From NCBI RefSeq assembly GCF_007558725.1, contig NZ_VLPL01000002.1, positions 124,001 through 188,000 on the forward strand: a stretch of DNA of 64,000 nt, in the 5' to 3' direction. Made by a program: the position numbers and the translations under genes. Of this stretch, positions 49,040 to 53,224 are shown piece after piece. The notes beneath the pieces are model-generated. The model was not told the DNA's origin and did no database searches. It saw nothing but the letters and a program-made list of their open reading frames with translations. Source of the stretch: Fluviicola chungangensis. GTDB lineage: Bacteria; Bacteroidota; Bacteroidia; Flavobacteriales_D; Crocinitomicaceae. Every line of letters begins with the position of its first letter. The stretch's first letter is position 1.

Positions 49040-49804
49040 TTACTCTGCGGAAACCATCGCTTTTAAGTATTCGCGGTTCATACGTGCAATGTTCTCTAAA
49101 GAAATCTCTTTCGGGCACTCGACCGCACAAGCGCCGGTGTTAGTACAATTTCCGAATCCTTCTTCGTCCATTTGTTTTACCATGTTTAAAACGCGCTGCT
49201 GTGCTTCCACCTGTCCTTGCGGCAATAATGCCAGTTGGGATACTTTTGCGGATACGAACAACATGGCAGAAGCATTTTTACAGCTTGCTACACATGCTCC
49301 GCATCCGATACAGGTCGCAGCTTCAAAAGCTTTGTCTGCTTCCGCTTTCCCGATCGGAATAGCGTTTGCATCCATTGTGCGCCCGGAAGTGTTCACAGAA
49401 ACGAATCCTCCGGCTTGCTGAATGCGGTCAAATGCCGAACGGTCTACGACCAAATCCTTGATTACCGGGAACGCTTTTGCTCTCCAAGGCTCCACGTAGA
49501 TTGTTTCACCGTCTTTGAATTTACGCATATGCAGCTGACAGGTTGTTACTGCGCGGTCCGGACCATGAGCTTCTCCGTTGATGTACAACGAACACATTCC
49601 GCAAATTCCTTCACGGCAATCGTGGTCGAATGCGATCGGCTCTTTGCGCTCATTTACTAATTGCTCGTTCAATTGGTCCAGCATTTCAAGGAATGAACTG
49701 TCTGTTGAAACATTGTCCAATTTGTATGTTTCCATACTTCCTTTCGAATTCGCGTTCTTCTGACGCCAAATCTTCAGGTTTATATTAATTGTTTTTGATG
49801 CCAT
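49040..49804 (-). CDS. sdhB: Succinate dehydrogenase/fumarate reductase iron-sulfur subunit
   Basis: 254 aa. The N-terminal plant-type [2Fe-2S] domain has Cys63, Cys68, Cys71 and Cys89 (CREGICGMC...C). The C-terminal ferredoxin domain has [11 protein letters not shown] (165-175) and CTNTGAC...C (220-230), giving the [4Fe-4S] and [3Fe-4S] clusters. It carries electrons from SdhA to the quinone site in the membrane. Its start is separated from the sdhA stop by 468 nt, entirely occupied by a four-helix-bundle element, whereas sdhC-sdhA spacing is only 18 nt. Confidence 0.95.
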
Positions 49805-49807
49805 AAC

Positions 49808-49834
49808 TTTTTAGTTATTAGTCGTTAGTTAGTA
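49808..49834. repeat. Inverted heptamer repeat, sdhB-proximal flank
   Basis: Successive 7-nt units TTTTTAG TTATTAG TCGTTAG on the plus strand, continuing as related units to about 49842. It matches 21 of 27 positions with the reverse complement of 50239-50265. It ends 3 nt before the sdhB start codon. Confidence 0.6.
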
Positions 49835-49878
49835 GTGCTTAGTTCGACCATCTAACTGACAACTTATTATTACAATTT

Positions 49879-50238
49879 CTATTTCAATTTAATCAATAAC
49901 GCATTTATCATTTTTCCCAATTCAGCGATTTCATTTTCAAGCTGCGAAATTAGTTTTTCATCTTTTGTTAAACCGAGTTCTCTGGATAGAATCAGTTGCG
50001 TATCTAATTCATACAAAGAACCTCTGGAAATTTTAAGGAAATTGATATAACTCGCTGTACTTTTTCCAAATCCTTCTGCTATATTGCTCGGTACTGATAC
50101 TGAGCATCGTCTCATCTGACTTGTAATTCCATACTGTTCTTGTGCTGGGAAATCTGAAGTCAATGTATAAATGTCTTTACTTAGAGCGATTCCGCGCTGC
50201 CAAATTAACAAATCCTTATACGACTTAACCTCCGACAT
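49879..50238 (-). CDS. Four-helix bundle protein (S23 / 23S rRNA IVS type)
   Basis: 119 aa from the ATG at 50238 (MSEVKSYKDLLIWQRGIALS); a TTG two codons earlier is possible. The signature 'YKDLLIWQR.I.L..DIY', 'YGITSQMRRCSVSVPSNIAE' and 'GSLYELDTQL' identifies the four-helix-bundle family, first described as the ORF in intervening sequences of 23S rRNA genes and common in Bacteroidota. It is thought to be a homopentameric helical protein that may bind RNA/DNA; the function is not established. Its location between sdhA and sdhB, with inverted heptamer repeats on both sides, suggests insertion of a mobile unit into the operon in the direction of transcription. Confidence 0.88.
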   Translation of the reverse strand: MSEVKSYKDLLIWQRGIALSKDIYTLTSDFPAQEQYGITSQMRRCSVSVPSNIAEGFGKSTASYINFLKISRGSLYELDTQLILSRELGLTKDEKLISQLENEIAELGKMINALLIKLK

Positions 50239-50265
50239 TACCAACTAATCCCTAATCCCTAAAAA
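50239..50265. repeat. Inverted heptamer repeat, sdhA-proximal flank
   Basis: On the minus strand it reads TTTTTAG GGATTAG GGATTAG and then TTGGTA, directly before the four-helix gene ATG. A preceding GGATTAG unit (50266-50272) joins it to the sdhA TAG stop codon (50273-50275). Confidence 0.6.
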
Positions 50266-50272
50266 CTAATCC

Positions 50273-52285
50273 CTATTTATAATTTCTCGCTGCGATCTTA
50301 ATATACTCGTAATTCAGCACTTCTTTGTGTAACTCGGATTGGTTGATGTCCATTCCTTTGTATTCCCATGCTCCAACAAAGTTGAAATTTTCGTCGTCAC
50401 GCAGTGTTTCACCTTCAGCATCCTGGTATTCCTCACGGAAGTGACCTCCACATGATTCGTTACGCTGCAGAGCATCTCGTGCCATTAATTGGCCCAATTC
50501 CATGAAGTCAGCCACACGAAGTGCTTTCTCCAATTCCGGGTTCAATTCGTTTGCATCTCCTGGAACGTATACTTCTTTGTAGAACTCTTCACGTAAGGCG
50601 GCAATTTCTGAAATGGCTTCGGTTAAACCTTGTGCATTGCGGGCCATTCCTACTTTGTTCCACATGATATGTCCCAAACGCTTGTGGAAATGATCTACTG
50701 TTTTGGATCCGTTATTGTTCAGGAATCGGGAGATCATGTCCTTTACATGGTTTTCAGCCTCCTCGAATTCAGGTAAATCTGTAGAGATTTTTCCGGTACG
50801 GATATCGCCCGCCAAATAATCGGAAACCGTATACGGAAGCACGAAATATCCGTCAGCCAGTCCCTGCATCAATGCTGAAGCTCCCAAACGGTTTGCACCA
50901 TGATCGGAGAAGTTTGCCTCACCGGCTACGAAACATCCCGGGATTGTAGATTGCAGGTTGTAATCGACCCAAACGCCTCCCATGGTGTAGTGAACCGCCG
51001 GATAAATCTTCATTGGAGTTTCATACGGGTTCTCGTCTGTAATTTTTTCATACATCTGAAACAGGTTTCCGTATTTTTCTTCTACCCATTTTTTACCCAA
51101 TTGGATAATTTCTTCTTCACTTGGGTTGTGGTTTCCGGAAGCATAAGCCGTTTGTTTTCCTTTCGCTTGGATCTCGGATGAGAAATCCAGGTAAACACCC
51201 TCCATCGTGTCGTTTGCCTCAATACCGTAACCGGCATCACAACGCTCTTTTGCGGCGCGGGAAGCAACGTCACGCGGAACCAGGTTTCCGAAGGCCGGGT
51301 AACGGCGTTCCAGGTAATAATCTCTATCTTCTTCTGCAATCTGTGTAGGTTTCAATTGTCCTGCACGAATTGCTTCAGCATCTTCTTTTTTCTTCGGTAC
51401 CCAAATACGGCCGGAGTTACGCAATGACTCGGACATCAAGGTCAATTTGGATTGATTGGTCCCATGAACCGGGATACAAGTAGGGTGGATTTGCACGTAA
51501 CAAGGATTTGCAAAGTAAGCTCCGCGTTTGTGAGCCTTCCAGGCAGCTGTTACGTTCGATCCCATTGCATTGGTTGAAAGGAAGTATACATTTCCGTATC
51601 CGCCTGTACATAAAATGACTGCGTGAGCCGAATGACGCTCGATTTCGCCGGTAATTAAGTTACGGGCAATGATTCCGCGAGCCTTTCCGTCTACTTTTAC
51701 CAAATCCAGCATTTCATGACGGTTATACATCTGTACGCGCCCCAATCCGATTTGGCGGGAAATTGCCGAATAAGCACCCAATAGCAATTGCTGACCTGTT
51801 TGTCCTGCTGCGTAGAATGTACGCTGTAGCTGTGTTCCACCGAACGAACGGTTGTCAAGCAAACCTCCGTACTCGCGTGCGAACGGAACGCCCTGTGCAA
51901 CACATTGGTCGATGATGTTTCCGGAAACTTCCGCTAAACGGTGTACGTTAGCTTCACGAGCACGGTAGTCACCACCTTTGATTGTATCATAAAATAAGCG
52001 GTAAACAGAATCACCGTCATTTTGATAGTTTTTTGCTGCGTTAATACCACCTTGTGCTGCAATCGAGTGCGCACGACGTGGAGAATCCTGAAAACAAAAT
52101 GCTTTCACGTTGTACCCCATTTCTCCCAGGGATGCTGCTGCGGAAGCTCCGGCCAAACCTGTTCCAACAACAATTACATCGATTTTCGGGCGGTTATTTG
52201 GAGCAACTAAACGCAGGTGGTCTTTGTAGTCGGTCCATTTTTTTGAAATGTGACCTTCTGGTATTTTTGAATCTAGAATAGACAT
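50273..52285 (-). CDS. sdhA: Succinate dehydrogenase/fumarate reductase flavoprotein subunit
   Basis: 670 aa. FAD-binding GTGLAG (41-46); His73 in [10 protein letters not shown] is the expected covalent FAD attachment site; substrate-site motif 'HPTCIPVHG'; capping domain and helical C-terminus ([18 protein letters not shown] with the conserved Arg/His region). It oxidises succinate to fumarate at the cytoplasmic face. Length and sequence type match the Bacteroidota three-subunit SdhCAB/FrdCAB complex. Its stop codon TAG forms the edge of the heptamer repeats of the downstream element. Confidence 0.96.
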
Positions 52286-52303: not shown

Positions 52304-53224
52304 TTATCTTCTTAAATAAATAACAACTGGAATAATCGCAAATAAGAACGGAACTACGATTGCGAATGCCTGACCTACAAATCGGATAAGTCCGTTGTAT
52401 TTTCGGTGGTTCAATCCCAAAGACTGGAACGCAGAACCGAAACCATGCCACAAGTGGAACATGAGAACAAACATGGAAATAACATATAAAATAACTGCGA
52501 CAAGAGCTAAGTCGTTTGCTTTTCCACCTTGCTCGGTGTGACCGAAGAAATTCATCACCACTGTGTGCAGATCACGCACACCTTCCGCTTTGTGCAGGTT
52601 GGTATTCATATCGATCAATTCGGTATCTTGGGTTTTTACTAATTCTTGTGAATTACCGGATTCAACATCCTTTGCAGCTACTTCCAGGTAGTTACCGTTG
52701 GTAGTCAACGCTGATTTTATAGTGATTTTACGGGTTACCGGAGCACCTGTCATCGGATCCTGCCCGATCTGCATATCTGTAGTATTCTCTACGTAATGCA
52801 AAGGAACTGTTTCAGCGACCTTTTGTTTCCACCAGAAATTTGCCATGTGCGTAACAATGAACACCAAAATGATCGTACCCAAAATGGCCATGTAACGGGA
52901 CGGGGTACTTGAATTGGTACCTGGTCTGTTGTAAGCATAGTTTTTCGGACGTGCTTTTTTGTTTTGTACAGCTAAGTACAAGCCAATGCATGCGTGAGCC
53001 AGAATGGAGAAGTACGTGACATACGCCAGGATCTTGATAAAGATGTTGTGGCCCATGAAGTAAGCATACTCGTTGAAAGCGCGCCTTCCTTCCTCTCCTG
53101 TTTTAGTGATTAGCTGCATGTTACCCAGCAAGTGTCCGACAAGAAAGGTAATTAGAAATAGCCCGGTAAGCGCCATCCAATACTTCTTTGCTAATGAGGA
53201 CGTAAATATTCCAGATTTACTCAT
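52304..53224 (-). CDS. sdhC: Succinate dehydrogenase cytochrome b subunit
   Basis: 306 aa membrane anchor of the b558 type with about five helices (about 14-30, 60-80, 105-127, 230-250, 275-300). Conserved heme-ligand type histidines appear in 'LVGHLLGN', 'HACIGLYLA', 'HMANFWWK' and 'MFHLWHGFGSAFQ'. A long loop between helices 3 and 4 (about 135-220, starting VPLHYVENTT) lengthens the protein beyond the usual ~220-250 residues. It anchors SdhAB and passes electrons to menaquinone. First gene of the operon, with a TAAATTTG promoter element 29 nt upstream. Confidence 0.92.
   Translation of the reverse strand: MSKSGIFTSSLAKKYWMALTGLFLITFLVGHLLGNMQLITKTGEEGRRAFNEYAYFMGHNIFIKILAYVTYFSILAHACIGLYLAVQNKKARPKNYAYNRPGTNSSTPSRYMAILGTIILVFIVTHMANFWWKQKVAETVPLHYVENTTDMQIGQDPMTGAPVTRKITIKSALTTNGNYLEVAAKDVESGNSQELVKTQDTELIDMNTNLHKAEGVRDLHTVVMNFFGHTEQGGKANDLALVAVILYVISMFVLMFHLWHGFGSAFQSLGLNHRKYNGLIRFVGQAFAIVVPFLFAIIPVVIYLRR

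Follow-up and report, generated by a model that had tools for sequence, protein, structure and literature searches.

The window, by which we mean the whole 64 kb stretch of DNA analyzed here, carries the succinate dehydrogenase genes sdhA and sdhB on the minus strand, separated by a 468-nt gap (49805-50272) that contains a PF05635 gene and two inverted short arrays. In the direction of transcription, the features are as follows:

52304-53224, minus strand, gene labelled sdhC in the preliminary description, without a Pfam match at E 0.001
50273-52285, minus strand, upstream host gene sdhA, succinate dehydrogenase flavoprotein (FAD_binding_2 and Succ_DH_flav_C, E 1.3e-35)
50241-50275, minus strand, upstream arm (5' in gene sense), made of five TAG-N4 heptads, with the sdhA stop codon as its first TAG
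49879-50238, minus strand, four-helix-bundle gene (PF05635/TIGR02436, S23/IVP), 119 aa from the ATG at 50238
49808-49842, plus strand, downstream arm (3' in gene sense), with one TAG every 7 nt, five in all (CTA in gene sense), in the orientation opposite to that of the upstream arm
49040-49804, minus strand, downstream host gene sdhB, iron-sulfur subunit (Fer2_3, E 7.5e-25, and Fer4)

The small gene runs from the ATG at 50238 (alternative start, TTG at 50244) to a stop at 49879 and matches PF05635 with an E value of 1.4e-34 and 120.4 bits (curated cut-off 33.8) and TIGR02436 with an E value of 4.6e-35. These matches, together with a minus-strand orientation shared with sdhA and sdhB, bear out the preliminary description of a four-helix-bundle gene of the 23S rRNA IVS type lying in the direction of the operon. 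As for the sdhCAB operon named there, Pfam confirms sdhA and sdhB, whereas the sdhC call lacks a match at the threshold given above; likewise, the gap was said to be filled entirely by the gene and its arms, and both are present, but 36 nt separate the gene stop from the downstream arm. The four-helix-bundle ORF is the only one of at least 60 aa in the gap, which encodes no transposase or mobilising enzyme of its own. Because this copy sits between the protein genes sdhA and sdhB and not in 23S rRNA, we file it as IVS-type rather than as an rRNA IVS.

The heptad pattern of the arrays exceeds chance expectation. TAG triplets start at 49812, 49819, 49826, 49833, and 49840 on the plus strand of the downstream arm and at 50275, 50268, 50261, 50254, and 50247 on the minus strand of the upstream arm. 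The pattern TAG-N4-TAG-N4-TAG occurs six times in the 64 kb window against 0.10 expected, and all six occurrences fall inside the two arms, so that each arm holds exactly five TAGs at 7-nt spacing. The reported inverted match is exact: 49808-49834 agrees with the reverse complement of 50239-50265 at 21 of 27 positions, which places complementary terminal sequences around the ORF. The sdhA stop codon, previously noted to continue the heptamer pattern, is the first TAG of the upstream arm; in the nine relatives of the genus that lack the gene, the sdhA stop is TAA.

Comparison of the sdhA-sdhB junction among relatives reveals occupied and vacant sites. Within the genus, the junction could be resolved in 13 of 14 genomes (G003 was dropped because of a contig break), four with the gene and nine without. 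The nine gene-less junctions span 49-101 nt and mostly contain, by eye, some palindrome; again by eye, that of G002 holds a solo short-unit hairpin and that of G010 a relict downstream arm. The palindrome is often an unrelated one of the GTAGGGACGC...GCGTCCCTAC type (gene-less junctions among L035-L042, by eye), and in G004 it reads GTACGGGTGGGTCGCGACCCACCCGTAC (by eye); these unrelated palindromes in gene-less genomes suggest that hairpins of various kinds are drawn to the junction or tolerated there. Among 39 junctions from sister genera, 18 are empty (gap of at most 35 nt), seven bear the gene (six intact, with L266 decayed), and the other 14 differ in content, some gaps having arm-like remnants, recognised by eye, and one a C-terminal gene remnant (L295). 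In another of these 14 (G032, L260:867-1494), the junction holds an NTP_transf_2 nucleotidyltransferase gene and a HepT-like gene, a pair of known toxin-antitoxin type.

Phylogenetic trees of the encoded proteins, built on ≈120 columns and with several weak forks, place the four sdh-site copies of the genus in one clade (98/93). With six family copies added, nine of ten sdh-site proteins form one clade (99/96), joined by L102, a copy from another site. The tenth, from G102, belongs to a clade (100/92) whose other members occupy different sites, and it carries AGA-type units, as they do. This different placement indicates that the junction has been occupied at least twice, by independent insertions; the commoner insertion has probably been lost repeatedly, and relict arms persist, as judged by eye, at junctions without the gene. 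The empty alleles sought in close relatives thus exist, and with 18 of 39 sister-genus junctions empty and 7 of 39 gene-bearing, the locus shows both the occupied and the empty sites that mark a transposable element. We conclude that the window feature is very probably an insertion element; that it mobilises itself is doubtful.

To place this layout in the context of the family, we compared the reverse complement of the 5' flank with the 3' flank (200 nt each) at 266 PF05635 loci and scored each locus against mismatched locus pairs from its own set. The self-score exceeds the 95% cross-locus level at 186 of 266 loci and lies below it at 80; the passing loci make up 40 of 64 in the genus set, 35 of 56 in the set spanning order and phylum, 56 of 75 in the named set, and 55 of 71 in a set added from 22 genomes (the new set). 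These loci are mostly best-scoring matches and hence a non-random sample; the new set comprises 90 later loci, among more than 130 listed, minus 19 duplicates of named ones, and loci on short contigs (L079 and L091) or with short flanks (L154, L169, L171, L190, and L211) were dropped. Arms in direct orientation exceed their own 95% level at only 12 of 64 genus, 14 of 56 wider, and 13 of 75 named loci. An arm score above 24 is reached by 4.1% of 436 ordinary genes, drawn from 800 kb of two genus members and therefore a matched control for the genus set only, versus 67%, 63%, and 75% of the genus, wider, and named loci, respectively.

In the named set, the level is passed by 31 of 38 loci from Bacteroidota, assigned by a name list, and by 25 of the 37 remaining ones; the latter represent, besides other groups, Acidobacteria, CPR bins, Cyanobacteria, Planctomycetes, Alphaproteobacteria, Clostridia, and a Methanophagales archaeal bin. 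Three bins in this remainder (Ignavibacteriae, Rhodothermia, and Balneolaceae) are placed in Bacteroidota by some taxonomies, and a fourth locus is from an unnamed bacterium; with these four removed, 22 of 33 pass. PF05635 genes are found in 157 of the 198 phylum genomes sampled and in 84 of 150 in the order, reach 17 copies per genome in the 22 genomes chosen as carriers, and have no match in 14 well-known control genomes. Empty alleles exist and other family members are likewise flanked by inverted short units, so that neither of the two outcomes named beforehand as refuting occurred; this supports the earlier proposal that an IVS-like unit has landed between the genes of an operon. The window feature is an IVS-type S23 element outside rRNA, and its layout is general well beyond one locus.

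The window copy itself stands out by its heptad pattern and not by its arm alignment score, which at 24 falls just below 26, the 95% level of mismatched genus pairs. One of the five PF05635 copies in this genome (L004) passes that level. Three others (L002, L003, and L005, on contig C19), one of them truncated, lie within a span of ≈9 kb, and inverted-arm scoring finds no clear arms at any of the three.

The array units vary from locus to locus (GGATTAG, AGACTTA, CAATAGG, CCCTATT, and many others), and the preliminary assignment of nnnTTAG as the unit is therefore not specifically supported; AG is the commonest core. The constant feature, in gene sense, is the spacing of AG to AG in the 5' flanks and of CT to CT in the 3' flanks, which peaks at 7, 14, and 21 nt. 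We counted units at each of the 266 loci as the longest run of AG (5') or CT (3') at exact spacing. At 7 nt, runs of three, four, five, and six units are found in 28, 30, 43, and 11 5' arms and in 22, 26, 36, and 4 3' arms, respectively, with runs of one or two units only at 144 (5') and 167 (3') loci. At least three AGs in exact 7-nt register thus occur in the 5' arm of 122 of 266 loci, the others having other cores or degenerate units. The corresponding 8-nt runs number 15, 3, 12, and 2 (5') and 15, 7, 9, and 1 (3'); because three-unit runs are also frequent at 9 nt (17 and 7), those at 8 nt are probably due to chance. A spacing of 7 nt gives 94 (5') and 77 (3') runs of at least four units, against 17 and 19 for 8 nt, 2 and 5 for 6 nt, and 3 and 3 for 9 nt.

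Among AG runs of at least four units, five is the commonest number in both 7-nt and 8-nt arrays, the 8-nt counts being small (12 and 9), and because five persists at 8 nt, it is unit number, rather than array length, that seems to be kept. A geometric length distribution would place at most one third of the four-to-six class at five units, and the observed 7-nt shares of 43/84 (p 5e-4) and 36/66 (p 3e-4) exceed this limit, with p-values that are indicative since orthologous loci are included and are not fully independent. The named and new sets, which contain fewer orthologs, have five units in 32/54 (p 8e-5) and 23/43 (p 0.005). In the 71-locus set, where a mode at five was predicted beforehand, runs of three to six units number 7, 8, 9, and 1 (5') and 5, 5, 7, and 0 (3'), with the mode at five and a departure that is not significant alone (p 0.11 and 0.066). 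Counting units by any dinucleotide was abandoned: at least four units then appear in both arms of 127 of 266 loci, yet also in 102 of 600 mismatched pairs, and we therefore rely on AG-only counts. Five other core words show no peak at five at 7-nt spacing across the 266 loci; with 8-nt spacing, a GA/TC core has a slight secondary rise at five units.

An AlphaFold2 model of the window protein contains four helices (mean pLDDT 97.1), and its best fold matches are chains A-E of 2gsc, chains A-E of 2rld (S23 family of Bacteroides), and Avd of DGRs (4dwl and, in a reverse transcriptase ribonucleoprotein, 8ub7), which has the same fold with TM scores of 0.72-0.78. The 2gsc and 2rld entries contain five chains each, although a chain count in a crystal entry does not establish that the protein is pentameric in the cell; we take Avd and the S23-type relatives to be pentamers in solution. 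The window copy differs from Avd in its setting, which has sdhA and sdhB as neighbors and no adjoining reverse transcriptase. The TRAP 11-mer, a ring protein, reads repeated (G/U)AG triplets. The logic proposed to be shared with TRAP-type rings is a repeated short core with free spacers and a unit number tied to subunit number; the fold is unrelated, and binding by the window protein is something that we infer.

Because five units coincide with five chains, and five persists for 8-nt units, we propose by analogy, and with the balance of evidence roughly even, that the protein encoded by this IVS-type S23 element of a protein operon is a ring in which each subunit reads one repeat. The four-helix-bundle protein would assemble into a ring of five identical subunits, resembling its solved relatives, and this ring would recognise the array of its own element on single-stranded nucleic acid, each subunit contacting one AG unit, much as TRAP does with its triplets. 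Each strand, whether sense transcript, antisense transcript, or displaced DNA, would present an AG array at its 5' end and the complement at its 3' end, and, given this inverted arrangement, ring binding would compete with hairpin formation. The outcome of such a competition could govern how the element is expressed, whether it is removed from the host mRNA, or how it spreads. That the encoded protein binds the arrays is a serious prospect, if one that falls slightly short of an even chance, and we lean marginally toward action at the level of RNA rather than DNA. Within a genome, the arms of paralogs with similar proteins show only a weak resemblance (r 0.16, p 0.025; 164 pairs from 11 genomes), which is odd for a specific binder; the idea that arms and proteins of same-genome paralogs coevolve closely is weakened accordingly. 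Arms at orthologous sites score 32.7 against themselves (32 loci) versus 26.4 between species (116 pairs), although of the eight groups, which were chosen on the tree by eye, three lack a self advantage and a fourth has one of only 0.5. More broadly and more tentatively, PF05635 genes could belong to widespread compact elements, each with one pentameric-ring gene and two inverted five-unit AG-centered arrays, one unit per subunit, of which rRNA IVSs, and perhaps orphan heptamer arrays and hairpins, would be special or decayed cases. We found no established function for PF05635-family genes, and a unit count equal to the likely subunit count would offer this family a direct, testable substrate.

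The main alternative is that the two arrays form a stem in the transcript, that cleavage of this stem by RNase III frees the sdh mRNA of the segment, and that the protein does not read the repeats at all; we regard this as unlikely. It has a precedent in the Coxiella 23S rRNA IVS, which, according to the part of PMC4990558 drawn on here, ends in a 28-bp terminal stem, is excised by RNase III, and carries two or three GACAGAT heptamers, depending on strain, and one GACAGAA before the S23 ATG. The likeness extends to the same protein family, an ORF between complementary ends, and heptamers just before the ORF start, but the Coxiella element lies in rRNA and the window copy between protein-coding genes, and the Coxiella heptamers are described on the 5' side only and in one species, with no inverted, mostly five-unit arrays in that part of the paper. 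Predicted folds also speak for pairing, in that at least 10 pairs form between the 110-nt flanks of 43/64, 65/75, and 56/71 loci versus 57/150 control ORFs; this count covers flank-to-flank pairs and not only array-to-array ones, and the control is of random ORFs that are not G+C-matched. PF05635 genes between tandem neighbors are, moreover, mostly in sense rather than antisense to both (39 versus 12 in the genus, 55 versus 3 in the named set), a bias that is nevertheless expected for any operon gene, and the antisense strand is predicted to pair as well as the sense strand.

In the window copy, none of 21 predicted flank-to-flank pairs links the two arrays, the upstream array pairing with sdhB sequence instead, and in a shorter predicted fold it pairs with inner sequence. 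Differences between arms of the kind that G.U pairing would tolerate are not in excess (212 versus 255, p 0.05; p 0.165 against composition). An early signal against selection for a sense-RNA stem in the first 65 loci (78 versus 112, p 0.016) dissolved into inconsistency among sets (genus 51 versus 56, wide 27 versus 56, named 51 versus 91, new 83 versus 52) and is neutral overall. Register-specific pairing fared little better: 17 loci with arms of equal length gave p 0.07, and among 125 loci, any core allowed, in-register matching barely exceeds unit similarity (0.677 versus 0.666, p 0.014), a small effect. Spacer agreement between the two arms is 0.57 in register and 0.52 out of register, compared with 0.31 between loci; the arms are thus alike mainly because every locus has its own unit. 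A rule of constant stem length further predicts fewer units at 8 nt, but five stays commonest above three. Pure pairing therefore explains arm likeness less well than does an array of sites, although a stem that tolerates slipped registers is possible. The suggestion that the arms form a base-paired stem kept by selection consequently finds no specific support, and for the window copy, an RNA stem is possible, with two predicted folds that do not pair its arrays. Processing of the transcript at the arms, also suggested earlier, is a hypothesis.

A second alternative, which we consider improbable, places recognition at the level of DNA, with the ends or hairpins recognised in trans by a mobilising enzyme, RAYT-like or reverse transcriptase-based, and gene-less hairpins as non-autonomous relatives. 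The shared fold with Avd, the partner of a reverse transcriptase, fits this model, as does a survey of 400 kb of G002, where 40 intergenic inverted pairs include ≈8 gene-less hairpins (by eye) whose arms are of the 7-nt type and whose loops span 14-88 nt; several of these share arms with PF05635 copies of that genome, whose sdhA-sdhB junction itself holds such a hairpin. Their loops, however, are unrelated to each other, unlike MITE copies, and 400 kb of the genome of the window yielded 11 intergenic inverted pairs and a single such hairpin, plus one 8-nt array with an inverted partner, in a scan that misses degenerate arms, including those of the window itself. This inverted-repeat scan replaced a strict search for solo tandem arrays, which found zero 7-nt and two 8-nt arrays in 800 kb, a scarcity attributable to unit degeneracy. 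We consider that the gene-less hairpins may be decayed or non-autonomous forms of the element, or its hosts. Two further G002 loci are unusual in layout: L217:2962-3083 is an almost loopless gene-less hairpin of many AGAC-type units, whose core recurs in PF05635 copies that relatives carry at a different site, and L031 has a PF05635 gene between two solo hairpins rather than two arms, its array orientation reversed with respect to the gene. Finally, short arrays are prone to slippage, and an ordinary operon gene whose flanks gathered short repeats in this way during replication would account for units that are locus-specific and differ between orthologous sites, but slippage alone gives direct repeats and not inverted pairs around one gene family across phyla, ordinary genes have inverted arms in 4% of cases, and 7-nt run lengths peak at five rather than falling off, which makes this reading very improbable.

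Returning to the proposed ring-read arrays, the recurring layout would connect Avd of DGRs with the 23S IVSs through a single nucleic acid-binding logic and would be a possible origin of some unexplained bacterial heptamer repeats. Cyanobacterial STRRs are heptanucleotide repeats. Along with the TAACTGA arrays of Beggiatoaceae, Cyanobacteria, and Bacteroidetes (PMC4679880, in the parts seen), they resemble the present arrays in being 7-nt intergenic arrays from Cyanobacteria and Bacteroidetes; those parts of PMC4679880 draw no tie to PF05635, the terms 23S, S23, and four helix are absent from its main text, and the link is a conjecture. The resemblance of Avd to PF05635 is noted in the part of PMC10053308 drawn on here, and the family is named in a figure legend of PMC10910872, likewise seen in part; we recognised no description of inverted heptad arrays around PF05635 genes among the open-access papers searched. 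In one cyanobacterial genome (G373), long clean arrays of CCCTATT and ACACCCCT flank PF05635 copies (L167 and L307), and these may correspond to the cyanobacterial heptanucleotide STRRs.
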